Positions 24,253 through 42,331 of a stretch of DNA of 56,843 bases are shown here, one piece after another (positions within the stretch are counted from its first letter, which is position 1; each line of letters opens with the position of its first letter). The notes beneath the pieces are model-generated. The model did no database searches. It was not told the DNA's origin and saw nothing but the letters and a program-made list of their open reading frames with translations. The DNA is from Thermoleophilaceae bacterium (GTDB taxonomy: Bacteria; Actinomycetota; Thermoleophilia; Solirubrobacterales; Thermoleophilaceae): positions 1 to 56,843 of the forward strand of contig JADGHQ010000009.1 of the NCBI GenBank assembly GCA_019683805.1, in the 5' to 3' direction. The position numbers and the translations under genes are program-made.

Positions 24253-24263
24253 CGGCCGGGCGC

Positions 24264-25244
24264 TCAGATCGCGTACTCCGCCACCCGCTCGCGCGGAGCG
24301 TGGCTCTCCATCCAGGCGATCGTGCGTCGCAGGCCCTCCCGCAGGTCGACCTGCGCGGACCAGCCGGTCAGCTCGCGCGCGAGGCGCGGGCTCGAGATGA
24401 GCCGCATCACCTCGCTGCGCTGCGGCCGCAGGCGCCGGGGCTCGACATCCACACTCAGCTCCCGGCCGAGGAGCTCGCCCACCAGCTCGACGATCTCGCG
24501 CACGGACACGTCGTGCCCCGTGCCGAGCTGCACCGTGCGCCCCACCGCCGCCGGCGACTGGGCGGCGGCGATGAAGCCGCTCACCGTGTCGGAGACGTAG
24601 GTGAGGTCGCGCCTCGGCTCGAGCGCGCCCAGGCGCAGGCGGTCGCCCGCGAGCGCCTGGGCGACGATCGTCGGCACGATCGCGCGCCGCGACTGGTGCG
24701 GCCCGTAGGTGTTGAACGGCCGCACGACCGTGACCGGCAGCTCGTAGGAGCGGTGGAAGCTGTCCATCAGCTTGTCGGCCCCGAGCTTGCTGGCGGCGTA
24801 GGGCGACTGGGTCTCGAGCGGATGGTCCTCGCTGATCGGGATCGTCTGAGCGGTGCCGTAAACCTCGCTCGTCGAGGCGTGGACCACGCGCGCGCCCTCG
24901 GCGAGCGCCGCCTGCGCGACGTTGAGCGAGCCGATCACGTTCGTCTCGAAGAAGCTGCGCGGGTTCAGGTACGAGTACGGGATCGCGATCAGCGCGCCCA
25001 GGTGGAACACCATGTCCGTCCCCGCGCAGGCCTGCCGCACCGACTCGGCGTCCCTCAGGTCGCCGAACACCACCTCGATCTCGCGCACGGCCTCGGGGTC
25101 GAACCACTCGAGCGTGCCGCGGTCGCCGCGCGAGTTGTAGTGCAGGAGGGCGCGCACGCGGGCCCCGAGCCGCGCGAGCTCGACCGCAAGATGGCCGCCG
25201 ATGAACCCGCCGGCGCCCGTGACGAGTACCCGCCGCCCGAGCAT
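24264..25244 (-). CDS. NAD-dependent sugar 4,6-dehydratase, LegB-like
   Basis: This 326-residue extended SDR has VTGAGGFIGGHLA for NAD binding, STSEVYG (Ser/Thr), and YAASKLGADK (YxxxK). The segments LLHYNSRG, IPYSYLNPRSFFETNV and RPFNTYGPHQSRRAIVPT are characteristic of LegB-type nucleotide-sugar 4,6-dehydratases (UDP- or GDP-GlcNAc). The product would be a 4-keto-6-deoxy sugar for the aminotransferase downstream. The gap to the next gene is under 12 nt. A plain UDP-glucose epimerase is less likely given these motifs. Confidence 0.85.
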   Translation of the reverse strand: MLGRRVLVTGAGGFIGGHLAVELARLGARVRALLHYNSRGDRGTLEWFDPEAVREIEVVFGDLRDAESVRQACAGTDMVFHLGALIAIPYSYLNPRSFFETNVIGSLNVAQAALAEGARVVHASTSEVYGTAQTIPISEDHPLETQSPYAASKLGADKLMDSFHRSYELPVTVVRPFNTYGPHQSRRAIVPTIVAQALAGDRLRLGALEPRRDLTYVSDTVSGFIAAAQSPAAVGRTVQLGTGHDVSVREIVELVGELLGRELSVDVEPRRLRPQRSEVMRLISSPRLARELTGWSAQVDLREGLRRTIAWMESHAPRERVAEYAI

Positions 25245-26186
25245 CTACCTCGCGGGCCTCCGAGCCGGCCCGGCGCCCGCGCCCACCGCCGGCTCGGGCG
25301 CCGCGGACGCGCCGGGCTCCCCGCCCGGCGCGAGCAGCGCGTCCTTGATCTCGTCGTAGCGCTCGATCGCCTGCGCGTAGTCGTCGAAGCGCCCGACGTC
25401 TAGCCAGAAGCCGTCATAGGAGTAGGACCCGACCCGCTCGCCCGCCTCGAGCAGCCGCCACACGAGGTCCGGCAGGTTGAACGGCTGCCCCGCCGGGATG
25501 TGCTCGCGCACGCGCCGGTCCACGACGTACACGCCCATGCTCACGCGATGGTCGATCGCGGGCTTCTCCCGGAACCCCGTCACGCGCAGCGTCGCCCCGT
25601 CGCCGCCGCCCAGCTCGAGCACGCCGTACTCGCTCGTCACGGTGCGGACGTGTGTCGCAACCGTGAGCGCGTTGCCGGATGTCACATGCGCCCTGTACAG
25701 GTCCGTGTAATCGAGGGTGGTGAGGATGTCACCGTTCATCATCAGGAAGGTGTCATCCAGGTGGTCCATCGACGCCAGCGGGCCGACCGTGCCCAGCGGC
25801 TTCGTCTCCTTGCGGTAGCGCAGTGACACTCCGTGCTGCGAGCCGTCCTGCAGCACCGCCTCGATCAGATGGGCGAGATAGCCGACGGCGAGGGTGATGT
25901 CGACGAACCCGCTGCGCGCGAGCTGCCGGATCACGAGATCGAGGATCGGCTGGTCGCCGATCGGCAGCAACGGCTTGGGCAGCACCGTCGTGTAGGGGGC
26001 GAGCCGCGACCCGCGGCCGCCCGCGAGGATCACGGCCTGCCTGCGCGAGCCGTTCCCGCCGTTCGCGGACGCTGCGCTCGCGCCGTTGCGCGACGCAGGC
26101 TCCGCCGGCGCGTCCGGCGGGCGGCCGCCGGACCGGACTCCGTGTCCGTCGATGCGATTGCTGCGCGTGCTCTCTCCCCACTCCAC
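25245..26186 (-). CDS. sugar-phosphate nucleotidyltransferase
   Basis: The 313-residue protein has the signature AVILAGGRGSRLAPYTTVLP-KP and LMMNGDILT for the metal-binding Asp, GFREKP, and a final FWLDVGRFDDYAQA. It belongs to the RmlA/ManC/HddC class and makes an NDP-sugar. About 45 low-complexity residues precede the catalytic start. GTG 26186 is supported by GGGAGG seven bases upstream. It directly abuts the dehydratase gene. The base and sugar used cannot be read from the sequence. Confidence 0.85.
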   Translation of the reverse strand: MEWGESTRSNRIDGHGVRSGGRPPDAPAEPASRNGASAASANGGNGSRRQAVILAGGRGSRLAPYTTVLPKPLLPIGDQPILDLVIRQLARSGFVDITLAVGYLAHLIEAVLQDGSQHGVSLRYRKETKPLGTVGPLASMDHLDDTFLMMNGDILTTLDYTDLYRAHVTSGNALTVATHVRTVTSEYGVLELGGGDGATLRVTGFREKPAIDHRVSMGVYVVDRRVREHIPAGQPFNLPDLVWRLLEAGERVGSYSYDGFWLDVGRFDDYAQAIERYDEIKDALLAPGGEPGASAAPEPAVGAGAGPARRPAR

Positions 26187-26198
26187 TGTGTTCCCTCC

Positions 26199-26996
26199 CT
26201 AGCGGCGCCGAAGCCTCATGCGCGCCGACTCGCGGTCCACCGCCACCGGCCGGCGCAGGAGGACCGTCACGCAAGCCCAGAAGAGGATCCGGAGGTCGAG
26301 CCCGAGGCTCAGGTCGCGCGCGTACATGCGGTCGAGGCGGACCTTCTGCGGGAGGATCCGCTCGACGTAGCGCGCGATCGGGTCCTTCGAGTCGAGCAGC
26401 CGGCTCTCCTCGGCGAAGGCGATCTGCGAGAGGCCGACGATGCCCGGCCTCACCTCGAGGATGCCGCCGTAGTAGTCGTCCGCGTGGCGGCGCACGAACT
26501 CCTCGCTCTCGGGCCGCGGCCCGACAAGGCTCATCTCCCCCTTGAGCACGTGCCAGAGCTGGGGCAGCTCGTCGAGCTTGTACTTCGCCAGCCGGCGACC
26601 GATGCGGGTGAAGCGCGCGTCGGCCGCGGAGGTCAGCGGCGCCCCCGTCGCGTCAGCGACCATCTTGCGCAGCTTCAGCATCCGCAGCGGCCGGCCGCGG
26701 TAGCCGACCCGGGCGCAGCGGATGAAGGCAGGCCCCGGGGAGTCGAGCCGGACGAGCAGCGCGAGAGCGGCCAGGGCCGGCAGGAGCGCCAGCAGCAGCA
26801 GCGCGGACACCGTGACGTCGAGGCCCCTCTTCACGGCCCTGAGGACGGCGAGCCGGACGCGGCCGCCCCCGGCGCTCCCGCGCAGGCCGTCGACGAGACG
26901 TCGTGTTCGCCGCGGACGCGCACCGGCTCCGACCCGCGGAGCCGCGTGGAAGCGGCCCCGCTGGTGAGTTGGCTGGCTCTGGGATACCGCCCTCAC
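26199..26996 (-). CDS. priming sugar transferase (undecaprenyl-phosphate sugar-1-P transferase)
   Basis: This 265-residue bacterial sugar transferase has KRGLDVTVSALLLLALLPAL (re-entrant membrane helix). It also carries the basic KLRKM, KYKLDELPQLWHVLKGEMSL, VGPRPE, and RPGIVGLSQ motifs of the PglC/WcaJ family. It would transfer a phospho-sugar to undecaprenyl phosphate to begin the repeat unit. The first 50 residues are Arg-rich and poorly conserved. It is the first gene of the minus-strand group running to 22140. Confidence 0.9.
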   Translation of the reverse strand: MRAVSQSQPTHQRGRFHAAPRVGAGARPRRTRRLVDGLRGSAGGGRVRLAVLRAVKRGLDVTVSALLLLALLPALAALALLVRLDSPGPAFIRCARVGYRGRPLRMLKLRKMVADATGAPLTSAADARFTRIGRRLAKYKLDELPQLWHVLKGEMSLVGPRPESEEFVRRHADDYYGGILEVRPGIVGLSQIAFAEESRLLDSKDPIARYVERILPQKVRLDRMYARDLSLGLDLRILFWACVTVLLRRPVAVDRESARMRLRRR

Positions 26997-27063
26997 TAGG
27001 CAAGTAACGACTGGAGGAAGCGCAAACTTGTCATGGTCCTTCCACAGCTCCGCTGGGCCTGCC

Positions 27064-28428
27064 TCAGCGGGCGATGGTGTAGGAGTCGATGACCTGGCCC
27101 TGGCGGCAGCTCGTCTCGTCGTCCGACGTCGGCGGCCCGCACACCGCCTGCACGCGCAGCGCGCGCGCGCTCACGTCGACCCTGACGTGCTCGAGGTGCA
27201 TCGCCCGGTAGGCCGTGCGCGGATCGGTCCCGGACCACGGCTCGAGCTCGAAGCCGCCGCCCGCCGCGGTGATGTGCACCACGTGATGGATCGGGCGGAA
27301 GCGCTCGTAGTCGTGGGAGTGGCCGTTGAGGTTCAGGACGTACTTGGAGTAACGGTCACCGAGGGCGTCGAGGATCGAGGCGAGCTCGGGATCGCCGTCG
27401 TGGTAGCCCGTCGAGTAGGCAGGCCGGTGGCCGAAGGTGACGATGAAGTGGATCCGCGGGCTCGCCTGCGCCGCCTGCATCAGCCGGCCGGCCTCCCTGC
27501 CCCACGCGCGCCACGCGGCGTCCGTATACGGCTCGGGGTACGAGACGAAGCGCACCCCGCCGGCGTCGAACCAGCCCCAGTCCTCGCCGCAGCAGCCGCG
27601 CGCGGGCGCGCCGGGCGAGGCGTGCGCGTGCGGGATCGCGAAGCGGCCCTTGTAGTTGCGCAGGTCGTCCGTCGGCTCGTCCCACTCGTGGTTCCCCCAG
27701 GCCGGCATGTACGCGGCCCGGACGCTCCACGCCATCGTGTCGTCGAAGTGGCGCTCGACCGCCGCCTGGCCGTCGTCGTTGCCGTAGGTGAGGTCGCCCG
27801 CGACGATCACGAACGCGGGGCGGTCGGCCGCGATCTGGGCCTGGGTCGCGCGCACCCGGCTGGCGCTGCGCGAGTCGCCGACGTCCGCCTCGACGTCGAA
27901 GCGGAACGGGCCCGTCGGCGGCGTGCCGAAGGTGTGATCGCGGCCCGCGCCGATCGCGTAGTGGTAGGTGGTGCCGGGCGCGAGCCCCCCGATGCGGGCT
28001 TCCCGGAACGGGCCGCGCGAGGAGATCGGGCGCGGCCTGGGGGTATGGGCGGTCGCCACTGCCCCGTAGCGGGAAGTTCGCCCGTAGCGGATCGTGGTGG
28101 CTGTGCCCTTCCAGTCGAACACGACCGCGCGTGGCCCGGCGTAGGTGTAGTGGACCTCGTGCGCCGTCCCGCGCCCGCGCGCCGCGGCACGCCCCGCCGG
28201 GGCGGCGCCGCGCGGTGCTGCCTCCGGCCGAGCCGCGCCCGTGACCCTGTCGGCCGGGTCCCCTATCGAAAGCAGCGCGACCGCGAGCGCGATCGCGGCG
28301 GCGCAGGCCGCGAGCGCTGCCGCGGCGAGCGCCGCGCTCGGGGCGAACCGCCTCAGGGAGCGCGCCGGAGCGCCGCCGCGGGCCGGCGCGCGCGGCCGCT
28401 GGAGCAGGGCTTGCGGGAGGCGGCGCAC
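27064..28428 (-). CDS. secreted purple-acid-phosphatase-like metallophosphoesterase
   Basis: About 454 residues. An N-terminal hydrophobic segment (AALAAAALAACAAAIALAVA) anchors or exports it. A fibronectin-like domain follows (HYTYAGPRAVVFDWKGTATT ... GLAPGTTYHYAIG). The metallophosphoesterase domain shows VAGDLTYG, WGNHEWD, VTFGHRPAYS and NGHSHDYERF, the metal-ligand motifs of purple acid phosphatases. Its target is unknown; a phosphorylated glycan or released phosphate are options. GTG 28428 begins just after the upstream stop at 28440. Confidence 0.85.
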   Translation of the reverse strand: MRRLPQALLQRPRAPARGGAPARSLRRFAPSAALAAAALAACAAAIALAVALLSIGDPADRVTGAARPEAAPRGAAPAGRAAARGRGTAHEVHYTYAGPRAVVFDWKGTATTIRYGRTSRYGAVATAHTPRPRPISSRGPFREARIGGLAPGTTYHYAIGAGRDHTFGTPPTGPFRFDVEADVGDSRSASRVRATQAQIAADRPAFVIVAGDLTYGNDDGQAAVERHFDDTMAWSVRAAYMPAWGNHEWDEPTDDLRNYKGRFAIPHAHASPGAPARGCCGEDWGWFDAGGVRFVSYPEPYTDAAWRAWGREAGRLMQAAQASPRIHFIVTFGHRPAYSTGYHDGDPELASILDALGDRYSKYVLNLNGHSHDYERFRPIHHVVHITAAGGGFELEPWSGTDPRTAYRAMHLEHVRVDVSARALRVQAVCGPPTSDDETSCRQGQVIDSYTIAR

Positions 28429-30346: not shown

Positions 30347-30361
30347 GCCGGCGGCTCAGCG
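30341..30361. terminator. hairpin spanning both stop codons of convergent genes
   Basis: CGCTGAGCC/GGCTCAGCG forms a perfect 9-bp stem with a GGC loop. It contains the TGA of the plus-strand gene (30344-30346) and the TGA of the minus-strand flippase gene (30356-30358). Confidence 0.5.
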
Positions 30362-31672
30362 AGCCGCCGCCCTCGGCAGCGCCTCCCCCTCCCACTGCCC
30401 GCTTGCCTTCGCGGCGCGGCCGGCGCGGCGGGTCACGCGCGCGAACAGCCAGATCAGCACGAGCGTGCTCGTCGTGTAGGCGACGGCCGATGCCGCGGCG
30501 GCTCCCACCGCCCCGAACGGTGGGATCAGAAGGAGGTCGAGCAGCACGGTCGCGACGAGGCCCGCGGCCATCGCCCACGAGTTCAGGCCCGGCCGCCCTG
30601 CCCCGTAGAGGAACGCCGTGATCACCCCCGCGACGCCCTCGAGCAGGAGGCCGAGCAGGATGATCCGCGCCGGGGTGACGGCCGCCTCGAAGGACGCGCC
30701 GTAGACGCCCGGCACCACGAGCCCCGCCGTCGACCAGAGCGGAACCGCGAGCGCGACGGTCAAGAGGGCTGCCCGCGGCAGCACCCTGCGGGCGCCGACG
30801 GCCGCCTTCGCTGGCCCGTCCCGCGCGAACTTCGGGTAGAGGACGTAGGTGAGCGCCATCCCGACGAGCTTGATCAGCTCGGCGAACTTCGAGGCGACGG
30901 CGTAGCCGCCGAGCACGGCCGGGCCCGCGAACAGCGTCAGGACGATGTAGTCGAGGCGCAGGTTGAGTTGGGAGATCAGGCCTCCCACCTGGGCGCGCAG
31001 CCCGTACGCGGCGATGCGGCGGGCGAGCCGCAGCGAGGGCGGCGCCGCGCGCCTGAGGAAGCCCTTTCCAAGGAGTCGGCGCCACGCGAGGGCGGCGGTC
31101 GCGCAGTCGGCCGCGATCAGCGCCGCCACGACCGTCGCCGCCCCGCGCGTGCCCACCGCCCACAGCGTCCCGTAGGCCGGCAGGAACATGAGCTCCTCGG
31201 TGAGGATCACGAGGTTCGAACCGGGCAGGTCCTCGCTCCCCTGGCAGCACGACTTGGCGGTGATCACGACGACCCGCGTCAGCACCGCCGCACCCGCCAG
31301 CAGCACGAGCCCCAGGGAGAGGTCCGGGAATAGCACGGGACCGAGCAGCGGAGAGGCCGCCGCCCAGAGCGCCGCCCCGGCCGTTCCCCCCGAAAGCGCC
31401 ATCGCGACGAGCGTCAGGGGCAGGCGCCGGTCGTCGCGATGCGGACCGGCGAGGAAGTAGGCGGCGGAGACGGTCAGCCCGCAGGAGGCGACGGTGCCGA
31501 GCATCCCCGGGAGCACGTGCAGGAGCGCGTAGACGCCCACGAGCCCCGGCCCGCCCTGCCAGGCGAGCACCACCGTCGCGAGCAGCGCCGAGCCGAGGGC
31601 TCCGAGGCGGGCCGCGACGTTGCCCGCGAGGGCCCCGTACACGCCGTGGCGGAGCTGCGCGAGCCTGCTCAT
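30356..31672 (-). CDS. Wzx-like polysaccharide flippase (MATE/MOP superfamily)
   Basis: This protein of about 438 residues has roughly 12-14 hydrophobic segments. Examples are GALGSALLATVVLAWQGG, LTLVAMALSGGTAGAALWAA and LGLVLLAGAAVLTRVVVITA. It also has the typical YAVASKFAELIKLVGMALTY core and a short basic C-terminus. It should flip lipid-linked repeat units across the membrane. ATG 31672 overlaps the stop of the polymerase gene by four bases. Confidence 0.85.
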   Translation of the reverse strand: MSRLAQLRHGVYGALAGNVAARLGALGSALLATVVLAWQGGPGLVGVYALLHVLPGMLGTVASCGLTVSAAYFLAGPHRDDRRLPLTLVAMALSGGTAGAALWAAASPLLGPVLFPDLSLGLVLLAGAAVLTRVVVITAKSCCQGSEDLPGSNLVILTEELMFLPAYGTLWAVGTRGAATVVAALIAADCATAALAWRRLLGKGFLRRAAPPSLRLARRIAAYGLRAQVGGLISQLNLRLDYIVLTLFAGPAVLGGYAVASKFAELIKLVGMALTYVLYPKFARDGPAKAAVGARRVLPRAALLTVALAVPLWSTAGLVVPGVYGASFEAAVTPARIILLGLLLEGVAGVITAFLYGAGRPGLNSWAMAAGLVATVLLDLLLIPPFGAVGAAAASAVAYTTSTLVLIWLFARVTRRAGRAAKASGQWEGEALPRAAAR

Positions 31673-33012
31673 TCCCTGCCCCAGAGCGCGAGCGCCGCGA
31701 CCAGGGCGAAGAGCGCCCAGACGTGGCGGACGTGGAAGAGCTCGTAGACCGTCCCTGCCGCCATCGTGCCGACGACCGCGCCGAGCATCGCGTTCGGCCT
31801 CGGGACGACGGCGCCGAAGCCGCGGGCAAGCGGCCGCGTCGCCGCCTCGAAGGCGCGGATCGCGATGCTCGAGACGAGCAGGAGGACGCCGACGAAGCCG
31901 ACCGCGCCCCGCTCGGTCAGGGCGGCGAGGTAGTCGTTGTGCGCCTCCTTCTCGAACGGCGCCATCTCGTTCCGAAGCCGCGTCTTGGTCGACACCGGCC
32001 CCTCGCCGAGCGGGCTCCCCTCCCGGTACAGCCGCAGGCTCTCCTGCAGGAGCATGCCGCGCTGCTCCACGCTCGTCTCGCGCCCGATCCCGTCGCGCAG
32101 GAACGCGACGCGACTGTTGTGCGCCCACTCCTCGACGCTCGGGAGGCTGACGCTCGAGGCGACGAGGTACACGCCGAGGACGAGGAACGCGAGCGCCGCG
32201 ACCAGCGCCGCGCCGCCGAGGCGCCGCCAGACCCCGAGCAGGCCGGCCACGGCGACGCCGATCGCTAGCGACATGGCGCCGCTGTTCGAGCCCGTCAGCA
32301 CGATCCCGGCCACGAGCAGCGCAGACGCGACGAGCCGCGCCCCGCGCCGCCGCGGCCGCCCCGTCGCCCAGATGACCATGATCGAGACGAAGAAGTAGTT
32401 CGCGGCGTAGCTCGGGTCGGCGAGGGTGAGCTGCACGCGCGCCCCCTGGCGCGCCGTCTGCCCGGTTAGGGACGGGTCGCCGAGGGCGAGGCCGACGTAG
32501 AGCAGGACGACCCAGCAGATCGAGCTGTAGGCCCAGGTCGCGAGCAGGACGCCGAGGTTCCGGGACGAGCGGCCGATGTTGACCACCGCCCAGCAGAGCG
32601 CGAGCAGCCAGAGGTCCTGCACGAGCGCGACGGCGCCGGTCGTCGGCACGGGACCGATCATCGCCCCGAGCGCCCCGCCCACCGCCAGCAGGCAGAAGGG
32701 CGCGAGGTACGGGAAGCGCAGGCGCTGCCCCGTGCTCCCCGCCCACACGAGGCAGCTCGAGACGGCGACGGCGATCAAGAGGTCGGCCGGAGCCGTGTTG
32801 GCGGCGCCCGTGGGGACGAGCAGGGGTGCCAGGGCGATCGCGGCCGCCGTGGCCCAGAGCGCGAGACGCTCCTCGGCGAGCGTCCTCGTCGGGGGCGCCG
32901 CCGGCGCGGGCGCCGGACCGCGGACGGCCGCCGCCTCGGAAGCCGCTGCTCCGCCGCCGGGCCACGGGCGGGCGGCGACGGGCGACCGCGTACTGGCTTC
33001 GGCGGAGCCCAT
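31669..33012 (-). CDS. O-antigen ligase/Wzy-like polymerase
   Basis: The 447-residue protein has about 10-12 membrane segments and a large periplasmic loop (QRGMLLQESLRLYREGSPLG ... EKEAHNDYLAALTERGAVGF). The H-N-x-Y/L core is the Wzy_C/O-antigen-ligase signature. It would polymerise or ligate flipped repeat units. A Pro/Ala-rich cytoplasmic stretch of 45 residues precedes the first membrane helix. It is coupled to the flippase gene (ATGA overlap). Confidence 0.85.
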   Translation of the reverse strand: MGSAEASTRSPVAARPWPGGGAAASEAAAVRGPAPAPAAPPTRTLAEERLALWATAAAIALAPLLVPTGAANTAPADLLIAVAVSSCLVWAGSTGQRLRFPYLAPFCLLAVGGALGAMIGPVPTTGAVALVQDLWLLALCWAVVNIGRSSRNLGVLLATWAYSSICWVVLLYVGLALGDPSLTGQTARQGARVQLTLADPSYAANYFFVSIMVIWATGRPRRRGARLVASALLVAGIVLTGSNSGAMSLAIGVAVAGLLGVWRRLGGAALVAALAFLVLGVYLVASSVSLPSVEEWAHNSRVAFLRDGIGRETSVEQRGMLLQESLRLYREGSPLGEGPVSTKTRLRNEMAPFEKEAHNDYLAALTERGAVGFVGVLLLVSSIAIRAFEAATRPLARGFGAVVPRPNAMLGAVVGTMAAGTVYELFHVRHVWALFALVAALALWGRE

Positions 33013-33025
33013 CAGAGCCGGCGGC

Positions 33026-35737
33026 TCAGGGGAGCGCGAGGGACGCGTCGTCCACGTACAGGCACACGCCGGGCACCGCGTCCACGACGTACACGTTGTA
33101 GTCGAGCGTCGAGCCGGGCGACCCGATCGTGTACTGGACGCTCAGCCGCTGCCAGGACGTCGTCAGCGTCGCCTGGGCGACCGCGCTCCCCACGGCCGTG
33201 CTCCCGCTGTACTCGCGCAGCCTGAGCTTGACGGTGGCGCCGGCCGCCTCCCCGCGCGCCCAGACCGCACCGGTGTAGGTGCCGGCCGAGGTCACGAGCG
33301 CCCAGTTCGGCGAGTCGTTGAGCGCGCAGGTGCTGCGCGCCGAGCTCGTGTTCGTCAGCCTCGCCGCCCAGTCGCCGCTGTGACCGCCCGAGACCCTCTC
33401 GAGCGCGATGCCGCTCCCCGAGCCGCTCGTGTTCCAGCCGGAGAGGTCGCTCTCGAAGCCGAAGTTGCGCACGAGGTTCGCCCGCACGTCGACCCGCGCC
33501 GTGGCCTGCGATTCCTGTCCCAGCGAGTCCTTCACGGTGACCGTCAGCGTGTAGCTCCCGGCCGCCGTGTAGGTGTGCGTTGCGGTCGCGCCGCTCTGGG
33601 GGCCTGTCGCGGGCGAGCCGTCGCCCCAGTCGAAGCTGTAGCTCTGGATGTCGTTCGAGGGGTCGGTCGAGCCCGAGGCGTCGGCGGTCACGGCCAGCGG
33701 CGCCACACCCGAGTCGGGCGCCACCGATAGCGCGGCGTCGGGCGGCGGGTTGGCCCCGAAGGCGTCCACCTTCGCCGTGGCGCTCGAGCTTTGCCCTGCC
33801 TCGTCCTTGACGGTGACGGTCACCGTGTAGACGCCCGGCGTCGCGTACGAGTGGTGCGCGGTGGCCGCGCTCTGCGGGCCTGTCGCGGGCGAGCCGTCGC
33901 CCCAGTCGAAGCTGTAGCTTGCGATCGGCGTGCCGTCCGAGTCCGTCGAGGCGGACGCGTCCGCGGTCACATCGAGCGGGACGTGGCCCAAGGCGGGTGT
34001 CGCCTCGAGGCGCGCGTCGGGCGGGTCGTCCGTGACGGTGACGGTGTGGCTCGCGGTCGACGAGAGGCCCTTGGTGTCGGTCACGGTGACCCTCACCGTG
34101 TAGGAGCCCGCGGCGCGGTAGGTGTGGGTCGCGGTCGCGCCCGGCTGCGGACCGACCACGGGCGACCCGTCGCCGAAGTCGAAGCTGTAGCTTGCGATCG
34201 GGGAGGTCCCATCGAGATCGGTGGAGGCCGAGGCGTCGGCCGTCACGGCAAGGTCGACGACGCCCGAGTCGGGCGTCACGTCGAGCGCGGCCTCGGGAGA
34301 GGAGTCGCCGAGCTGGCGCTCGAGGGCGCCGCGGTCGTCGTAGGGCCGCGGCCCCGCGCCGGTGTTCGGCACGCCCGGGTCGTCCACCCGGGGCTCGTCC
34401 TCCGCGTCCGTGCCCGGCTGCCCGCTCACGCCGGAGTTGGCGGAGTCGATCGCGGGCGAGCGCGCGGTGAGGTGGAGGTCGCCCGCGGCCGGGTCGACCC
34501 ACGCGGGATCCGCCTCGATCCCGTGCTGCTCCTGTCCACTCGCCGCCTGGAACTGAGCGAGCGTCGCGGCCCCCAGGCCGCGCCACTCGTAGTTGCGGCC
34601 GGGGCCGTGCTGGAACACCACGTTGTAGTCGACGACGGCGCCGATGCTCGAGGGCGAGTCGACGCGGATGTTGCCGGTCGTCCGCGGGCTCGACGAGGTC
34701 GCGTTGTCGACGCTGATGTTGTTGACGACCGTGGCGTTCGGGGAGGTGCCCTCGACGTTGATCCCCGCGGCCGTCGGGTTGTTGTAGACGCTGTTCGAGA
34801 TCAGCCGCTGGCCGGACGAGTTGTAGACGTCGATGCCGTGGTCGCCGTTGCCGTAGGAGACGTTGCTCACCGCCAGGTTCGAGTCGGCGCCCGAGGCGAA
34901 CTCGATCCCCGAGTCCTCGTTGTCGTGCGTGACGTTCGAGGAGATCGTGTTGGCGGTCGAGCCGTGGACCCGGATCCCCGACGCCGCCCGCTCGAAGCCG
35001 CGGGCCTGACCGTAGACCGAGTTCGACACGACCTCGTTGCGCGTGCTGCCGCTCCTGAGGTAGATGCCGTAGTCGGTGTTGTGGTCGACGGTGTTGGTGG
35101 CGATCAGGGAGTCGGTCGTGTTCTCGATCCGGATGCCCTTCGCGGTCCTCCCCGACACCGGATCGCCTGAATTGCTCACCCGGTTGCCGCGCACGGTGAT
35201 GTGCGACGAGCTCTTCACGACGATGCCGTCCCCGCTCGTCCCGGTGACCTTGAAGCCCTGGATCGTCACCCAGCTCCGCCCCGAGAGGTAGAAGCCGTCC
35301 GAGCCGCCGGCGACCGTCACGTCGGCGCCCGGCTCGGCGGTGAAGTTGATCGGCGCGCTGGCGGTGCCCGAGCTCGACACCGTGACCGTCTCGTTGTAGG
35401 TGCCCGAGCGCACCAGCACGGTCTGGCCCGCGACCACCCTCGAGGCCGCGGCCCCGATCGAGCAGAACGGCTGCGTCGCCGTGCCCGCGCCCGCGTCGGA
35501 GCAGCGCGAGTCGTTCTTCGCGACGTAGAGCGTGGGCGCGGCGCCGGCCGCAGCCGCGACGGGGCCCGCCGCCGCGACGAGCGTGGCGAGCACCGCGGCG
35601 AGCAGCCCGACGGCCGGGCCGATCGCGCGCCGGCGCGGGGAGCTCACTGGCTCGGTCGGGGCGGCGCGCCGTGGCGTCGGGGCGCGCCTCGACCTGCGCT
35701 CGCTCCGGCCTGGAGGAATGCTCGCGTCTGGTCCCAT
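33026..35737 (-). CDS. secreted parallel beta-helix protein with three PKD domains
   Basis: About 903 residues. A long Arg-rich N-terminus leads to a hydrophobic export segment (AVGLLAAVLATLVAAAGPVA). Residues about 70-440 are a right-handed beta-helix of the NosD/pectate-lyase type (HITVRGNRVS, NTVDHNTDYGIYLRSGS, NTISSNVTHDNEDSGIEFAS). Three PKD domains follow (each with SYSFD(F/W)GDGSP and a closing TVTVTD-like strand), then a jelly-roll carbohydrate-binding-like domain. Such proteins bind or cleave extracellular polysaccharide. ATG 35737 is chosen; TTG 35746 is possible. Two PKD copies are nearly identical in DNA. Confidence 0.8.
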   Translation of the reverse strand: MGPDASIPPGRSERRSRRAPTPRRAAPTEPVSSPRRRAIGPAVGLLAAVLATLVAAAGPVAAAAGAAPTLYVAKNDSRCSDAGAGTATQPFCSIGAAASRVVAGQTVLVRSGTYNETVTVSSSGTASAPINFTAEPGADVTVAGGSDGFYLSGRSWVTIQGFKVTGTSGDGIVVKSSSHITVRGNRVSNSGDPVSGRTAKGIRIENTTDSLIATNTVDHNTDYGIYLRSGSTRNEVVSNSVYGQARGFERAASGIRVHGSTANTISSNVTHDNEDSGIEFASGADSNLAVSNVSYGNGDHGIDVYNSSGQRLISNSVYNNPTAAGINVEGTSPNATVVNNISVDNATSSSPRTTGNIRVDSPSSIGAVVDYNVVFQHGPGRNYEWRGLGAATLAQFQAASGQEQHGIEADPAWVDPAAGDLHLTARSPAIDSANSGVSGQPGTDAEDEPRVDDPGVPNTGAGPRPYDDRGALERQLGDSSPEAALDVTPDSGVVDLAVTADASASTDLDGTSPIASYSFDFGDGSPVVGPQPGATATHTYRAAGSYTVRVTVTDTKGLSSTASHTVTVTDDPPDARLEATPALGHVPLDVTADASASTDSDGTPIASYSFDWGDGSPATGPQSAATAHHSYATPGVYTVTVTVKDEAGQSSSATAKVDAFGANPPPDAALSVAPDSGVAPLAVTADASGSTDPSNDIQSYSFDWGDGSPATGPQSGATATHTYTAAGSYTLTVTVKDSLGQESQATARVDVRANLVRNFGFESDLSGWNTSGSGSGIALERVSGGHSGDWAARLTNTSSARSTCALNDSPNWALVTSAGTYTGAVWARGEAAGATVKLRLREYSGSTAVGSAVAQATLTTSWQRLSVQYTIGSPGSTLDYNVYVVDAVPGVCLYVDDASLALP
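33593..33919 (-). repeat. near-identical DNA of two PKD repeats
   Basis: The stretches 33593-33642 and 33869-33919 match at nearly every base over about 50 nt, while the third PKD copy near 34145-34200 has diverged. This indicates a recent duplication or gene conversion between the two C-terminal PKD modules. Confidence 0.7.
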
Positions 35738-35794
35738 CCGTACCAAGAACGGCGAAGCCGGCAGAGAAATTCCGGGGCGCGGCCGTCCGGCCGC

Positions 35795-36850
35795 TTAAAG
35801 ATCTGCGCGCGGTCGCCCCGCGCGGGCGAGCCGGCGGAAGAGCTCGAGGTGGGCGCGCGCGAAGCCCGGGTCGTCGGTCAGCGCCGCGATCTCCGCGATG
35901 CCCGCGAGCGCCGCGTCGCGCCAGAGCGTCCGCGGCGCTCCCAGGCGCGCCAGGCCGTCGGCGAGGAAGCGGCGGACGAGATCCGGGAACCAGCCGCTGG
36001 CGTCGAGCGCGTACTCGACCCCGGCGCCCCAGCGATCCGCCCGCAGCCCGGGATGGCCGGGCACGCGCCGACCGCTGCGCGTGCGGCGGTCGAGGAAGAG
36101 CGCGTAGGTGAGCGCGAAGCGCGCGAGGTCGCGTAGCGGCTCGCCCGACCCCGCTCCCCCCTCCCAGTCCACGACTCCCGAGACGCGCTCGCCGTCGAGC
36201 AGGACGTTCCCGACCCAGAGGTCGCCGTGCACCGCCGTGCGCGGCGTCGCGCTGCGAGCGAGCCTCGAATGGATCTCGGCCAGGGCGGCGAGGTCGTCCG
36301 CGAGCCGCACGTCGCTCCAGAAGCGCGACGCGAGCCGGGACGCGACGCCCCCGTCCATGTCGATCCTCGCCGGCGGCCCCGCCGTCGCGCGCTGCAGCTC
36401 GGCGAGCCAGCCGCCGACCGCGGCGAAGTGCCGCGCGACCCGCTCGCGCCGGGCGGCGTGGCGGCGGCGCAGGTACGACGTCGTCATCGGCGTGCCGCTC
36501 GCCGCGGTCATCACGATGCCGGGACGCCCGCGGAACTCGACCGAGCCGACGACGCGCGGGATCGTCGCGCCGACGGGCGCCCCGAGCCGGGGAAGCTCGG
36601 ACAGGACGCGCGCCTCGCGCGCTACCGCGCGGGCGGCCGCGTCCGTCGTGGGGACCTTCACGGCGAGCACCGGCCGCCCGCTCTCGGGGGAGACGAGCAG
36701 CGTCGTGATCTTCGCGTTCGGATCCTTCGACGCACCCAGGACCAGCGACCGAAGCCCCGAGGAGCGGACGAGGTCCCACAGCGTCTGCGGCGGTGGCGCC
36801 TCGGCCGCGCGTCCCGGAGGGCCGCCCGCGACCCCTACGCCCGGCCTCAC
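35795..36850 (-). CDS. aminoglycoside-phosphotransferase-fold (APH) kinase
   Basis: This 351-residue protein has AVHGDLWVGNVLL (the catalytic HGDxxxxN loop) and GVVDWEGGAGSGEPLRDLAR (the metal-binding D in the DFG-like position), as in APH/choline-kinase fold enzymes. The upstream LAVKVPTT strand holds the ATP-binding Lys. Resistance is an unlikely role here: within a glycan locus it more probably phosphorylates a sugar, alcohol or other small molecule. GTG 36850 overlaps the stop of the preceding gene (GTGA), so the two are coupled. Confidence 0.8.
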   Translation of the reverse strand: MRPGVGVAGGPPGRAAEAPPPQTLWDLVRSSGLRSLVLGASKDPNAKITTLLVSPESGRPVLAVKVPTTDAAARAVAREARVLSELPRLGAPVGATIPRVVGSVEFRGRPGIVMTAASGTPMTTSYLRRRHAARRERVARHFAAVGGWLAELQRATAGPPARIDMDGGVASRLASRFWSDVRLADDLAALAEIHSRLARSATPRTAVHGDLWVGNVLLDGERVSGVVDWEGGAGSGEPLRDLARFALTYALFLDRRTRSGRRVPGHPGLRADRWGAGVEYALDASGWFPDLVRRFLADGLARLGAPRTLWRDAALAGIAEIAALTDDPGFARAHLELFRRLARAGRPRADL

Positions 36851-37287
36851 CTGCGCCTCCCCACGCTGATCCGCCCCGGGCACAGCGCCCGCACGAGCCG
36901 CCGCGAGCCGAGCCTGCGCAGCACCGCGATCCCGGCCCCCACGAGCATGCCCGGCAGGCCCGCGCGGGGCGGCGGCGCGAGCACCGAGCCCAGGAACGCC
37001 GCCACGGAGGCCGGCGCGTCCTCGACGAGGTAGGCGGGCGCGGCAGCGGAGGGAAGGGCGAGGTACTCGCGCTCGAGCTCTAGCTCCGCCGCGCGCGCGA
37101 ACGCTTGCGAGCGGCGCAGGGCGCCCGGCGCCGAGGCGAGCAGCACGACGGGCGCGCCCGGCGGCAGCGCGCGCACCGTACGGGCGAGCGTGCGCCCAGC
37201 CGCCCGCCCGCGCCCGAGCCGCACAGGCGCCGCGCCCGTGGGGCTGACGGCGAGCCAGTTGTCCCGCCAGCGCTCGGCCCCCGTCAC
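36847..37287 (-). CDS. unknown 146-residue protein
   Basis: I do not recognise this protein. It reads as one small alpha/beta domain (NWLAVSPTGAAPVRLGRG, PGAPVVLLASAPGALRRSQA, ELELEREYLALPSAAAPAYL) followed by an Arg-rich C-terminus (LRRLGSRRLVRALCPGRISV) that could lie on the membrane. It sits 10 nt downstream of the RtcB-like gene and overlaps the kinase gene, inside a five-gene block. It probably cooperates with that block. Confidence 0.55.
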   Translation of the reverse strand: MTGAERWRDNWLAVSPTGAAPVRLGRGRAAGRTLARTVRALPPGAPVVLLASAPGALRRSQAFARAAELELEREYLALPSAAAPAYLVEDAPASVAAFLGSVLAPPPRAGLPGMLVGAGIAVLRRLGSRRLVRALCPGRISVGRRR

Positions 37288-37297
37288 GCGCGCCTCC

Positions 37298-38734
37298 TCA
37301 GTTCAGCACCGCGATCGGCCGCAGGCGCGCGACAGGGCGCGCGATGTCGTGGCGGACGAGCGTGCCGAGCGCGTCGTCGACGCCGCGGTCGTCGAGCTGG
37401 CCCACCTCGGTCGGCCCGCCGCGCGAGTAGTCGAACCTGAGGGTCGTCCGCCCGCGCGGGTCCGACCCCGAAAGGCCGCGCTCGACGAAGTGCTTGATGC
37501 TCGAGCCCGCACCGTGGCAGGCCGAGTAGACGCTGTCGCGCGCGCCCTCCCCGGCGACGCACAGGTACGAGGAGGTGCGGTTCGTGCCCGGGAGCAGCAG
37601 CGCCTGGCCGATCTTGCCGAACACCGGATGGCCCGCCATGCGCGACGCGGGGTAGGCACGGGCGGCGTTGTGCCGGTGGACCACCGCGGTCTCGCCGTCG
37701 ATCTCCTCCTCGTAGATCGAGTTGTGCGGCGAGTCGACGATCAGCCGGCTGCCGGTCGCGCCGAGCGTCTGGGCGGCGAGGCGGGTGAGGATCGCGTAGA
37801 CGGCGACCCTGAACGCGAAGCCGTAGTTCATCGCCATGACGTTGGCGAGCGTCAGCCGCTCGCCCTCGCCCCCGTCGCGCTCCACGGGCCTGAACTCGCC
37901 CGAGAAGTACAGCCTCTTGCGGAGGCGGAGCTCCTCCAGCGAGCGCGCGCGCGCGAAGTGGTACAGGGGCCTCTGCACCGCCATCTGGATGCGCAGCTGC
38001 CGCGTGTAGCGCTTGCGCGGGCCGAACAGGACTCCGAGCTCCCCGGTGAGCGCGCCCCCTCCCCCGTGGTACTGGAGCGTCACCTGGCCCGCCTCGACGC
38101 CGAGCAGCGCCGCCGCCTCGGGGTCGAGCACCTCCTCGACCTGCTGGAGCTCGATGAAGTGGTTGCTCGGCCCGATGTTCGCGAAGCGCAGGCGGGATGC
38201 CTGCTTGACCGACCAGGGCAGCTCGCGCCGGATCCGCTCGATCCCGCCATAGGGCTCGGTGTCGAGCCTCCCGCCCTCCTCGATGCGCGCGAGCACCGCG
38301 GGATCGACCGCGAAGCGCTCGACGGCGAAGCGCGCGCCCTCGCCGGCGCAGCGGACGACCTCCCCGGGGGTGAGGTCGCGGCGCCACGGCGGCGGGAAGG
38401 GCAGCCGCTCCCGGACGCGGTCGTAGAACGCGGAGATGCGGCCCTCGTCCGGCCGCTCGAGGTCGAGCGCGACGAGCGCCATCCCGCAGTTCAGCGAGCA
38501 GCTCGTCAGCGTCGGCCGGATGGTGTCCCGGGTGGCGACGGCGATGCTCGAGGGCATCTCCTTGTCGCCCTTGAAGTGGAAGTCGGGCAGCACCGCGGGC
38601 GGCGCGGCGAGGTCCGCGTCCGCGAGCCCCTCGCGCATCGCGGCGAGGCCGACGGGGTCGGCCGGCGCCTCCGCGCTGTCGAAGATGCGCAGTCCGGGCG
38701 CCTCGGCGCCCACGTTCGTCGTCGTTGTGCTCAT
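37298..38734 (-). CDS. divergent RtcB-like protein (RNA-ligase homologue) in a glycan locus
   Basis: The 478-residue protein follows the RtcB plan from end to end. LPDFHFKGD (50-58) stands for PDVHxGKG, and LNCGM keeps the metal Cys (C83). SNHFIELQ keeps N191 and H192, YHGGGG keeps H223, PHN keeps H337, and LLPGTNRTSSY and ACHGAG keep the His that carries GMP (H407). Lost or changed are the Asp three residues before the Cys (VDIGCG becomes CSLNCG), the SGSRG Arg after H223, and the RKGA motif (HRHNAARA). Metal binding may survive while ligation is doubtful. It overlaps the HprK-like gene by 4 nt (ATGA). An RNA-ligase relative inside a Wzx/Wzy locus is unexpected. Confidence 0.8.
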   Translation of the reverse strand: MSTTTTNVGAEAPGLRIFDSAEAPADPVGLAAMREGLADADLAAPPAVLPDFHFKGDKEMPSSIAVATRDTIRPTLTSCSLNCGMALVALDLERPDEGRISAFYDRVRERLPFPPPWRRDLTPGEVVRCAGEGARFAVERFAVDPAVLARIEEGGRLDTEPYGGIERIRRELPWSVKQASRLRFANIGPSNHFIELQQVEEVLDPEAAALLGVEAGQVTLQYHGGGGALTGELGVLFGPRKRYTRQLRIQMAVQRPLYHFARARSLEELRLRKRLYFSGEFRPVERDGGEGERLTLANVMAMNYGFAFRVAVYAILTRLAAQTLGATGSRLIVDSPHNSIYEEEIDGETAVVHRHNAARAYPASRMAGHPVFGKIGQALLLPGTNRTSSYLCVAGEGARDSVYSACHGAGSSIKHFVERGLSGSDPRGRTTLRFDYSRGGPTEVGQLDDRGVDDALGTLVRHDIARPVARLRPIAVLN

Positions 38735-39705
38735 GCGGCGACCTCCAGCGTGTCGAGCAGGACAGCGAGGCGGCTCTCCGTGGCTCGCCCTACGCTCAGC
38801 GAGAAGCAGGGCAGCGTCGCTGCGAATGCGGCGGCGACGTCCTCGACCGGGGGATGGGCCGGGCCGACGCCCGTCCCCGCCGAGAGCGCGGCGGCGAAGC
38901 TCCAGTAGCGGCGCAGCTCCCCGGCCATGTAGGTGCTCGTGACGAGCGCGCGCGTCGCCCGCTGCGCGCTGCACGCCTCGAGCGACGGCTGCTCGGAGCG
39001 CCCGCGCTCCAGCACGACGAGCCTGTCCGGCACGAGCTTCGGCACCCGGCCCGGCATCGGCGCCTCCTGCCGGCCGTGCGGCATCCGGCGCCCCCCGGCT
39101 CGCGCGACCCGCAGCGGCTCGACGAGGCCCCAGATCGTCGTCCCGTCGCCCACTGCCAGGTTGTCGCCGGTCGCCCGGGAGCCGTAGGCGACCTCGCCGA
39201 GCAGCACCGTCGAGCGGCCGATCCCGCTCTGGGCGGTGAGGAGCGGCGTCGCGTTGCCCGCCGTGCACGCCGACGCGTGCAGCGGCGCCCGGCCGCGGGT
39301 GCCCGCCCGCCAGAGGGCCGGGTACTGGATGAGCACGGCGCGCGCGAGCAGATGGAAGCGCGATCGCAGCGCCCAGGCGGCGGCCCGGTCCCGCGCCGGC
39401 GGGCGCCAGCGGTAGGTGAGCTCGATCCGCTCCGGCACGCGCCGGACGTGGACGTCGAAGCCCGCCGTGCACGGGTTCTCGAGCACCACCTCGCCGTTCC
39501 GGCGCCAGGCGCCGCGCGCGAGCAGCTCGAAGCGGCTCGTGTCGAAGCCGCTGCGGCTCGCCTCGACGCGCACGAGCACGGACGCGTCGCATGTCTCGTG
39601 CGGGCGGAGCTCGCCCGCCGCGCCCTCGGCAATCAGGTCCATGACCCAGGGGAGCGAGCAGTCGATAGAGAGCCGCTCTCCAGCCGTTTCGAGCGTCGCG
39701 CGCAT
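38731..39705 (-). CDS. HprK-like P-loop protein with altered Walker A
   Basis: The 324-residue protein has an N-terminal beta-rich domain (to about 135). The P-loop domain has the pattern of HPr kinase/HprK-related proteins (SACTAGNATPLLTAQSGIGR-ST, then GDNLAVGDGTTIWGLVEPLR). The Walker A Lys is replaced by Arg (SGIGRST, R164), so nucleotide binding or hydrolysis may be altered. HprK-like proteins are known from exosortase-linked polysaccharide loci and peptide-maturation clusters. It lies between the GT4 glycosyltransferase and the RtcB-like gene with overlapping stop/start codons at both ends. Its substrate could be its RtcB-like neighbour. Confidence 0.7.
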   Translation of the reverse strand: MRATLETAGERLSIDCSLPWVMDLIAEGAAGELRPHETCDASVLVRVEASRSGFDTSRFELLARGAWRRNGEVVLENPCTAGFDVHVRRVPERIELTYRWRPPARDRAAAWALRSRFHLLARAVLIQYPALWRAGTRGRAPLHASACTAGNATPLLTAQSGIGRSTVLLGEVAYGSRATGDNLAVGDGTTIWGLVEPLRVARAGGRRMPHGRQEAPMPGRVPKLVPDRLVVLERGRSEQPSLEACSAQRATRALVTSTYMAGELRRYWSFAAALSAGTGVGPAHPPVEDVAAAFAATLPCFSLSVGRATESRLAVLLDTLEVAA

Positions 39706-40931
39706 CAGCGGCCCGCCGCCTCCGCTCGCGCCTGCCGGGCGGGCGCGTCGAGCGCCGCCTCGTAGACCTGCATCAGCTCCCGGCCGAGCAGGTCGGCGCG
39801 GTACTGCTCGCCGACGCTCGCGCGCGCGTTCGCCGCCATGCGGGCCGCGTCGGCCGGGTGGTCGAGCATGTACGCGAGCGCCCGTGCCAGGGAGGCCGGA
39901 TCCGCGGGGCGCGCGAGCAGCCCCGTCCTGCCGGGCACGACCACCTCCGGGACGGAGTTGACCGCGGTCGCCACCACCGGGATGCCGCAGGTCATCGCCT
40001 CGACGACCGAGCACGGGAGCCCCTCCCAGAGGCTCGAGAGGGCGAAGACGTCGAACGCCGGCAGGAGCCGCGGGGCGTCGTCGCGGTCGCCGGCCAGCAG
40101 GAAGCGGCCGCGGAGCCCCTCCCGCTCGATCCGGCGCTCGGTCTCCGCCCGCAGCTCGCCGTCGCCGAGCCAGACCATGTGGACGTCGGGCCGGCGCAGC
40201 GCGGCGATCGCTGCCACCATGTCGAGCGGCGCCTTCTGGCGGGCGAGGCGCGCGGCCGTGCCGACGACCGTCGCGCCGTCGGGGAGGCCGAGCGCGCGGA
40301 GCGCGGCGCGGCGGGCGGCCGCGGTGACCGGCGGGACGCTGTCGATCGGGCTGACGAGGGCCCGGACGCGGTCGGGGGGCGCGATTCCGAGCCTGACCGC
40401 CTCGGACGCCACGAACGTCCCGTCGGTGAGGAACCAGTCCGTGATCCGTCCGAGCGCGCGCTCGATCGCCAGCAGCGTTCGCCGGGTGGCCGGCGACTGG
40501 AACTCGTTGAACGGGAAGCCGTGCAGGGTGTGGACGACCGCGCGCACGCCGGCGCGGCGCGCGGCCAGCCTGCCGATCGCGCCCGCCTTGCCCGCGTGCG
40601 TGTGGACGAGGTCGAAACGGCCCGCGCGCAGGAGCCCGGTGAGCTCGCGCAGCGCGTCGGCGTCCGACCATGGGCGAACGCGGCGCCCGCCGCTCATCCG
40701 GCGCAGCCGAACCACCTCGAGCCCGGCCTCCTCGGCGCGGGCGAACAGGGTCCCCTCCTCCGGCGCGAGGATCGTGGCCGCATACCGCTCCGGGTCGACC
40801 GCCAGAGCCTCCCGCAGCGTGATCCCGCCCGACCCCGCCGTGAAGTTCGCGTTGACGTGCGCGACGCGCAGCCGCCGGGCGGCGGCCCGTCGCCCGGCGC
40901 GCTCGTCAGCGGTTGGGACCGTGACAGCCAC
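39705..40931 (-). CDS. GT4-family glycosyltransferase
   Basis: This 408-residue GT-B enzyme has N-terminal RVAHVNANFTAGSGGITLRE and LVHTHAGKAGAIGRLAARRA. The C-terminal half has VGTAARLARQKAPLDMVAAI (nucleotide-binding), FALSSLWEGLPCSVVEAMTC (the EGxPxxxxE-type motif) and GIPVVATAVNSVPEVV. It should transfer a hexose from an NDP-sugar to the lipid-linked glycan on the cytoplasmic side. Start GTG 40931 lies 15 nt after the Wzz-like gene, and its stop overlaps the HprK-like start (ATGA). Confidence 0.9.
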   Translation of the reverse strand: MAVTVPTADERAGRRAAARRLRVAHVNANFTAGSGGITLREALAVDPERYAATILAPEEGTLFARAEEAGLEVVRLRRMSGGRRVRPWSDADALRELTGLLRAGRFDLVHTHAGKAGAIGRLAARRAGVRAVVHTLHGFPFNEFQSPATRRTLLAIERALGRITDWFLTDGTFVASEAVRLGIAPPDRVRALVSPIDSVPPVTAAARRAALRALGLPDGATVVGTAARLARQKAPLDMVAAIAALRRPDVHMVWLGDGELRAETERRIEREGLRGRFLLAGDRDDAPRLLPAFDVFALSSLWEGLPCSVVEAMTCGIPVVATAVNSVPEVVVPGRTGLLARPADPASLARALAYMLDHPADAARMAANARASVGEQYRADLLGRELMQVYEAALDAPARQARAEAAGR

Positions 40932-40945
40932 TGCCTGCGTCCGTG

Positions 40946-42331
40946 TCAGGACCGGGGCTTCCGGGCGTCCGCACGCCGTCTCCGCGCCGCCCTGCGGCGC
41001 ACGCTCAACGGCCCCTGCGGCGGCGCGCAGGCGATCACCCCGACGAGCGGCGCCGCGGTCAGGCTCACGGTGCGCCGGGCCTCGGCGAGCACGCGCTTCT
41101 CGACCGTCGCCGGCGACACGACGACGACCCCGGACGGGGTCCCGTTGCCGGCCGCCGCGCCCTCGCTCGTGAAGGCGCGAACGCTCACCGGAGGGAGCCT
41201 GCTCGCCGCGGGCGCCTCGAGGGCGGCCTGCTCCGGGGTCGCGAGCGACCCGGCCCCGACCTCAGCCGGGGCGCGCGTCGGCGCCGCGCGCTCGGCGCCC
41301 GCCTCGAACTCCGTCGCGGCGAGCGCCTCGCCGAGCCGGTCCGCGAGCCGGCGAGCGTCGGCGCCCTCGCCGACCGCCAGGAGATCCACGCGCCTCACCC
41401 CGGACTTCCGCGAGGCGAGCCGCAGCCGGGCGGCGAGCGGGCCGAGGTCGTCCGCCGCCGGGTCCTCTCCGGGCCGGATCGGGAGGGCGCCGAGCAGGGG
41501 CGCCCCGAGCTCCGCGGCGACGGCGTCGCCGCCGACGAGTGTGGGCCGGAACGTCTCGCGCAGCCCGGCCAGGCCGACGCCGAGGACCCCGCCGAGGATC
41601 GCGCCCAGGACGAGCCGCGCCGTGAGGCCCGACGGCTCACGCCGGCGCGGCGGGCTCGCCGAGCTGATGATCGTCGGCGTGGGCCGCAGCGCGGCGGTCG
41701 AGAGCAGGCTCACCTCGCGCGACTCGAGGACCGTCCGGCGCGAGGTGAGCAGGCTGCGCCGCCGCAGGAGCTCGTCGCGCCGGGTGCGAGACGCCTGCGA
41801 CGCCTGCCCTCCCGCTCCCGCGGCCTGAATCTGCGCGTCCAGGTTCGAGATCTGTCGGTTGACCGACGCCATCTCCTTGTCGAGCGCCTCCAGCGTCTGC
41901 CGCATGCCGTTCGAGACGCCCGTCCGCACCCGCAGCACGTTGCGGGCGAGCGCGTTGGCGATCGCCGCCGCCACGCGCGGGTCGCGGTCGCTGACGGTGA
42001 GCTTGAGCACGCCGGAGGTTCCCAGCGCCCGCACCGCGATCCGCTTGTCCGCGAGCTCCGTGGGGTCGCGCCCGACCGCGTGGCTCGCGGCGATCGCCGC
42101 CTTCACCTGCGTCGGGCTCGTCGCGATCGCCCGCGCGGTGTCGGCGATCGCCGACGACTCGGCCTGGGACTTCGGGTCCTCGGTGTCGAGGACGAGGCGT
42201 GGGGGGGCGGCGTACATCGCGCCGCCCCCGCCGCGGATCAGCGCCGCCACCGCCAGGCCGAGGACTAGACAGCAGGCGATCAGCGCCCAGTGCTGGCCGA
42301 CGATCCTGCGCGTGACGTCGCCAACTTCCAT
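40946..42331 (-). CDS. Wzz/BY-kinase-type polysaccharide co-polymerase (no kinase domain)
   Basis: The 461-residue protein has two membrane helices (HWALIACCLVLGLAVAALIR near the start and ARLVLGAILGGVLGVGLAGL in the middle) around a helical extracytoplasmic domain. This is the arrangement of chain-length determinants. The cytoplasmic C-terminus resembles the BY-kinase P-loop region only in outline (VDLLAVGEGADARRLADRLG) and has no Walker A, so it is not a kinase. The tail is highly basic. It should set polymer length with the Wzy-like protein. It is the first gene of the block ending at 30356 and is divergent from the gene at 42440. Confidence 0.8.
   Translation of the reverse strand: MEVGDVTRRIVGQHWALIACCLVLGLAVAALIRGGGGAMYAAPPRLVLDTEDPKSQAESSAIADTARAIATSPTQVKAAIAASHAVGRDPTELADKRIAVRALGTSGVLKLTVSDRDPRVAAAIANALARNVLRVRTGVSNGMRQTLEALDKEMASVNRQISNLDAQIQAAGAGGQASQASRTRRDELLRRRSLLTSRRTVLESREVSLLSTAALRPTPTIISSASPPRRREPSGLTARLVLGAILGGVLGVGLAGLRETFRPTLVGGDAVAAELGAPLLGALPIRPGEDPAADDLGPLAARLRLASRKSGVRRVDLLAVGEGADARRLADRLGEALAATEFEAGAERAAPTRAPAEVGAGSLATPEQAALEAPAASRLPPVSVRAFTSEGAAAGNGTPSGVVVVSPATVEKRVLAEARRTVSLTAAPLVGVIACAPPQGPLSVRRRAARRRRADARKPRS

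Follow-up and report, generated by a model that had tools for sequence, protein, structure and literature searches.

A run of closely spaced genes lies on the minus strand of a 56,843-nucleotide stretch of Thermoleophilaceae bacterium DNA (GenBank assembly GCA_019683805.1, contig JADGHQ010000009.1, positions 1 to 56,843), referred to here as the window. In the 5' to 3' direction the series encodes a GT4 glycosyltransferase, a P-loop protein related to HPr kinase/phosphorylase (HprK-like), a protein with the fold of the RNA ligase RtcB (RtcB-like), a 146-residue protein and an APH-family kinase (Table 1). The original prediction, made from the window sequence alone, had proposed that the last four form one coupled system in a polysaccharide locus, with the RtcB fold reused on a glycan. 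This is supported by the co-occurrence of the genes across genomes, by the non-canonical active site of the RtcB-like protein, and by the polysaccharide loci in which the genes are found.

The HprK-like and RtcB-like genes overlap by ATGA (38734-38731), and the gene for the 146-residue protein overlaps the APH gene by GTGA (36850-36847), with the GTG at 36850 serving as the APH start codon. Both overlaps had been predicted. A third stop/start overlap, proposed as ATGA at 39705 between the GT4 and HprK-like genes, is instead a single base, TGATG. The RtcB-like gene and the gene that follows it do not overlap but are separated by 10 nt, so the claim that all four genes are overlapped holds for the other two junctions of the block. 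Apart from these junction details, the predicted coordinates and residue assignments were correct. A small open reading frame hidden inside the block was considered and excluded, because junctions that overlap or lie no more than 10 nt apart leave no space for one.

The block is conserved across genomes. In the class Thermoleophilia the RtcB-like gene was identified in 7 of 399 genomes, the gene for the 146-residue protein in the same seven, and the HprK-like gene in these seven and in one other (G251), where the match reaches the end of a contig and a GT4 gene is located upstream. The original prediction had named an RtcB-like gene occurring mostly without the HprK-like gene as evidence against a single system; in the class, both were present in 7/7 genomes. 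Co-occurrence of the three genes was significant (Fisher p ~3e-15, 399 genomes) in a test that takes genomes as independent though they are related; the carriers span seven genera in three families. Two weak matches, an eighth for the 146-residue protein (G033) and one for HprK (G447:C65), looked spurious from the neighbouring or containing genes and were rejected. The order HprK-like, RtcB-like, 146-residue protein and APH recurs in nine loci (the window, L002, L003, L009, L004, L005, L006, L007 and L084), a count that includes the near copies L003 and L009. A GT4 gene is directly upstream in eight of the nine, the window and seven others, and the junctions are mostly 4-base overlaps, with gaps of at most 10 nt. 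The APH gene of L003 is interrupted by a frameshift, which may be an assembly error. Relatives were also found in metagenome bins labelled Dormibacteraeota (L006), Gemmatimonadetes (L007) and Nocardioidaceae (L008). These loci show that the RtcB-fold gene travels with the HprK-like, 146-residue and APH genes in one operon.

The RtcB-like protein matches Pfam PF01139 at 136 bits, well above the cut-off of 27, and a family profile of its clade retrieved RtcB from the PDB at 7e-44. Twelve clade members are 54-73% identical to the window protein, whereas other RtcBs are ~22% identical. When 84,980 species genomes were scanned, eight contigs gave relatives at 58-72% identity; the other 26 matches were other RtcBs at 20-25%. 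Class- and phylum-wide searches yielded further members, with scores falling from 1e-207 to 1e-28 between the clade and other RtcBs, and plasmids in PLSDB contained distant RtcBs only. In a tree of the 12 clade members and 52 other RtcBs, the clade occupied one branch with support of 100/100 and a length of ~3 changes per site, both the length and the placement being approximate owing to compositional effects and long branches.

Residues were compared between the 12 clade members and 52 canonical RtcBs using the numbering of Pyrococcus horikoshii RtcB (PhRtcB), in which C98, H203, H234, H329 and H404 correspond to C83, H192, H223, H337 and H407 of the window protein. Human RTCB uses Cys122, His259 and His353 as ligands of metal A; Asp119, Cys122 and His227 coordinate metal B (PMC10944509). 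The metal A ligands Cys98, His234 and His329, the third His ligand (His203, metal B) and the nucleophile His404 are kept in 12/12 clade members. The original prediction had recognised the Cys and the HGAG His, but put the retained His ligands too low at "most", as all are kept. Equivalents of Glu206, Ser385 and Asp65 are also present in 12/12 and that of Asn202 in 11/12. Asp95 of metal B is absent from all 12 members (Ser in eight, Ala in four). Arg238 is replaced by Gly, Lys351 by His or Tyr, Arg408 by Ser, Ala or Thr, and the C-terminal Lys480 by Asn, Thr or His in 12/12, and Arg412 is replaced in 11/12. Among the other RtcBs, Arg238, Lys351, Arg408 and Arg412 are present in 52/52 and Lys480 in 51/52. 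The predicted loss of the first Asp, the SGSRG Arg and the RKGA motif is therefore real and extends to Arg408, Arg412 and the C-terminal Lys, and a complete canonical active site is intact in none of the members.

GMP (guanosine monophosphate) is contacted in RTCB by Glu230, Ser409, Lys504, Asn226 and His428 (PMC8668186), and of these five only Lys504 is lost in all clade members, Asn226 being replaced in one. Taken together with the human contacts, the residue comparison therefore indicates that the monophosphate side of the GMP pocket and metal A are kept, and that the losses fall on metal B, on Lys375 (PhRtcB Lys351), which binds phosphate, and on the conserved arginines. The lost arginines may be those that bind RNA or triphosphate in canonical RtcB. 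The RtcB-fold proteins thus form a separate clade, which by these alignments retains the full ligand set of metal A (Cys and two His), a third His ligand, the nucleophile His and most of the GMP-monophosphate pocket, and has lost the second-metal Asp together with conserved Arg and Lys residues.

The HprK-like protein contains the Walker A sequence AQSGIGRST and has GDN at the position of the HprK DD. The window protein alone matched no Pfam family and, in NCBIfam, only ScmC at 0.23, and a Foldseek search with its model gave no matches. Its predicted identity is weak on this basis and is strengthened by the family. HprK_rel_A matches five of ten family members (best E=3.5e-5, below the cut-off), and the top three PDB matches to the family profile were HprK, at the P-loop (E 0.5-1). 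HprK chains also took ranks 1-3 in VIA-align (Z 6.7-6.2, 95-105 residues, 3.1-4.3 Å) with a low-confidence model (predicted local distance difference test score, pLDDT, 62) in which the P-loop region is unresolved. HprK-related kinase A (TIGR04352) is the best NCBIfam family for the group, though far under its 200-bit cut-off, and the P-loop, a preceding LHA motif and an Asp after the P-loop align with it and with HPr kinase/phosphorylase. The group differs from HprK-related kinases in its mostly Arg-containing Walker A, in the lack of a detectable HPr in the genome and in its RtcB-like partner. The predicted replacement of the Walker A Lys by Arg is correct for the window protein and for most members, but it is not a family trait, since Lys is found in L006, L007 and L081. 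Genes like HprK-related kinase A are common in the class, occurring in 48 of 199 genomes (for example L118-L123). One of these loci, L120, resembles a gene cluster for a lasso-type peptide, in which positions 10226-10408 encode a candidate precursor of 61 aa.

The APH protein has complete catalytic motifs (VHGDLWxGN, DWE and the ATP-binding Lys65). The HxDxxxxN and DxE/D motifs and the Lys are invariant in eight aligned relatives, and because of this invariance the protein is likely a working kinase. The 146-residue protein matched no Pfam family. Its model (pLDDT 78) gave a best VIA Z of 7.5 over 104 residues at 2.6 Å, below the decisive level, and resembles, though not decisively, half of a methyltransferase fold; an S-adenosylmethionine motif was looked for in the protein and none was seen. 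Two further loci, L081 (6690-7388) and L082 (6432-7067), encode longer proteins of 211-232 aa that share the motif LNWRxVxPSEPxGLLLL. No Pfam family was found for these, which may be counterparts of the 146-residue protein.

All of the relatives' loci that are long enough to judge are polysaccharide loci with Wzx, Wzy and/or sugar-nucleotide genes, in agreement with the predicted setting, and in the window Wzx, Wzy and an initiating sugar transferase are all present. The best NCBIfam match of the GT4 protein is the XrtA-type glycosyltransferase TIGR03088 (2.4e-40, below the cut-off). Homologues of the Wzz-like protein occur at L002, L005, L007, L008 and L084, and those of the beta-helix/PKD protein at L002, L005, L008, L084 and L085. 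In most relatives a Wzy gene comes directly after APH, and Wzx homologues follow Wzy in L003, L004, L005, L007 and L084.

Table 1. Genes of the conserved series and of the surrounding polysaccharide locus in the window.
Feature	Coordinates	Strand	Basis
GT4 glycosyltransferase, first gene of conserved series	39705..40931	-	Pfam Glycos_transf_1 4.6e-31
HprK-related P-loop protein, 324 aa	38731..39705	-	family profile matches, weak
RtcB-fold protein, 478 aa, divergent clade	37298..38734	-	Pfam RtcB 2.6e-39
Unknown-family protein, 146 aa	36847..37287	-	conserved APAYLVED motif
APH-family kinase	35795..36850	-	Pfam APH 2.5e-23
Wzz-like chain-length protein	40946..42331	-	EpsF 1.3e-6, below cut-off
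Secreted beta-helix/PKD protein, recurrent neighbour of block	33026..35746	-	family search
Wzy-like polymerase (O-antigen ligase family)	31669..33012	-	Wzy_C 5.5e-12
Wzx-like flippase	30356..31672	-	Polysacc_synt 7.3e-9 on longer open reading frame
Sugar-nucleotide and initiation genes (deacetylase, DegT aminotransferase, SDR dehydratase, nucleoside triphosphate (NTP) transferase, initiating sugar phosphotransferase, phosphoesterase)	22140..28428	-	Pfam

The most complete locus is that of genome G285 (L101 and L084). It begins with a deacetylase, a formyltransferase-like gene (family taken from the L005 homologue), an initiating transferase, Wzy, Wzx and a dehydratase. It continues with an NTP transferase, an aminotransferase, Wzz, GT4 and the HprK-like, RtcB-like, 146-residue and APH genes, and ends with a beta-helix gene, one gene lying between it and APH. 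No glycosyltransferase was recognised in this locus besides the GT4 and the initiating transferase. This composition therefore places the four genes at the core of a short pathway. Loci for Wzx/Wzy-dependent exopolysaccharides, with an XrtA-type GT4, Wzz, Wzy, Wzx and an initiating sugar transferase, likewise have a full complement of genes for precursors, polymerisation and export. The loci described here differ in carrying four additional coupled genes for which no role has been described, and the most complete of them has a single glycosyltransferase apart from the initiating transferase. The four genes are best explained as a conserved module within a compact exopolysaccharide pathway of the Wzx/Wzy type. 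LicA-type choline kinases and other small-molecule kinases of the APH family occur in glycan loci, and in this case too an APH fold with intact motifs is found in a glycan locus. Its partner is instead an RtcB-fold protein, and LicC and LicD were not seen among the annotated genes.

A dedicated role in making the polysaccharide, other than RNA ligation and exerted by catalysis or by control, has in our estimate a probability of roughly 0.8. The RtcB-fold protein may be an enzyme that carries out phosphoryl or nucleotidyl transfer on a sugar precursor, using His407 (the former GMP-binding His) and one metal ion. The reaction would take place in the cytoplasm, ahead of Wzx-mediated export, on a small sugar intermediate that is either soluble or lipid-linked. 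Phosphate would be supplied or placed by the APH kinase, perhaps together with the HprK-like protein, and the product would be a repeat unit containing a phosphate or phosphodiester. This specific transfer mechanism, the likeliest of the steps considered, is proposed tentatively. It is doubtful that, in the fuller version, a covalent-His, single-metal RtcB-fold enzyme together with APH and the HprK-like protein puts a phosphodiester into the exopolysaccharide repeat unit.

Several observations weigh against a polysaccharide-specific module of this kind. The 146-residue protein is without a clear family, the HprK-like model is of low confidence, and the gene order differs at L008 and L081. The HprK-like gene was not found in G447 and G458 (82% and 62% complete assemblies), two more distant members of the RtcB-like clade in which the RtcB-like, GT4 and APH genes are present. 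The substrate and activity proposed for the RtcB-like protein are predictions, and it may instead have a regulatory or structural role.

Regulation is the main rival to a phosphoryl- or nucleotidyl-transfer step. In this reading the RtcB-like and HprK-like proteins would regulate polysaccharide production as a phospho-switch whose RtcB fold senses nucleotides without catalysing a reaction, consistent with HprK being a protein kinase, with Arg in the Walker A of most HprK-like members and with the loss of the RtcB sites needed for full chemistry. The metal and nucleophile residues are invariant, however, which would not be expected for a purely structural role, and the genes translationally coupled to the block are GT4 and Wzy, not regulators. 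A search of the host genome (G000, 95% complete) did not find HPr, a second RtcB or archease, the last of which is needed by many, though not all, RtcBs, so neither HPr phosphorylation nor RNA repair is an obvious job for these proteins. We consider a regulatory pair unlikely. Alternatively, the RtcB fold could be a covalent-His nucleotidylyltransferase that converts an APH-made sugar phosphate into a nucleoside diphosphate sugar for the single GT4. Consistent with such an enzyme are the retained metal A, the nucleophilic His and base-contacting Glu and Ser, the adjoining intact kinase and the single glycosyltransferase of the most complete locus, but the loss of the gamma-phosphate and metal B side (Asp95, Lys351) argues against a triphosphate donor and the locus already contains a standard NTP transferase, making this rather improbable.

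It is very unlikely, judging from the active-site residues, that the RtcB-like protein is a metalloenzyme that ligates RNA and stands in a polysaccharide operon by chance. It shares with the 3'-phosphate RNA ligases of P. horikoshii and human the fold, the Cys, the three His ligands, the nucleophile His and the base-contact Glu and Ser, so that five metal and nucleophile residues and the greater part of the GMP pocket are preserved. It differs in lacking five Arg, Lys and Asp residues in 12/12 members (Asp95, Arg238, Lys351, Arg408 and the C-terminal Lys; Arg412 also in 11/12), in its ~22% identity, and in being found with polysaccharide partners rather than in an archease, RtcA or RNA-repair context. 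In human RTCB, substitution of the residue homologous to Asp95 (D119A) leaves weak guanylylation and no ligation (PMC10944509). Production or modification of a small peptide is just as improbable, since the asparagine-synthase-like, transglutaminase-like and PqqD-like genes that adjoin HprK-related genes of lasso-type clusters elsewhere in the class (by our reading of L120) were not seen in the RtcB-like loci, and the overlapped block has no room for a precursor gene.

The folds and the kind of locus are known, while their combination and the inferred function are without description in the literature found: among open-licence publications, no paper was found that joins RtcB-like or HprK-related genes with polysaccharide or exopolysaccharide loci. 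To our knowledge, RtcB is known only as a ligase of RNA (and nucleic-acid ends), and we know of no earlier case of non-nucleic-acid chemistry for the fold, so that such chemistry, if true, would be a first. Retention of the metal and nucleophile residues alongside loss of the ligase residues, in a clade tied to a polysaccharide operon in several lineages of actinobacteria and also in bins that carry the labels of other phyla, suggests that the RtcB fold has a second function and that glycan assembly includes a step not yet described. Annotation pipelines will mislabel these genes as RNA ligases.

Other features were also identified in the window. ARAGORN called a tRNA-Arg (CCG) inside the Wzy-like gene (32897-32971, minus strand), which is probably a false positive because Rfam at gathering scores gives none. 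A type I restriction system is located on the plus strand (3652-10472). Its methylase (N6_Mtase) and specificity (Methylase_S) domains are fused in a single protein of 1231 aa, and HsdR (1042 aa) and a YgjP-like metallopeptidase come next. The restriction region is flanked by a 180-nt direct repeat, 91% identical, at 3117-3296 and 17866-18045 (14.7 kb apart), each copy of which overlaps a short predicted gene, and the repeats may mark an inserted island.

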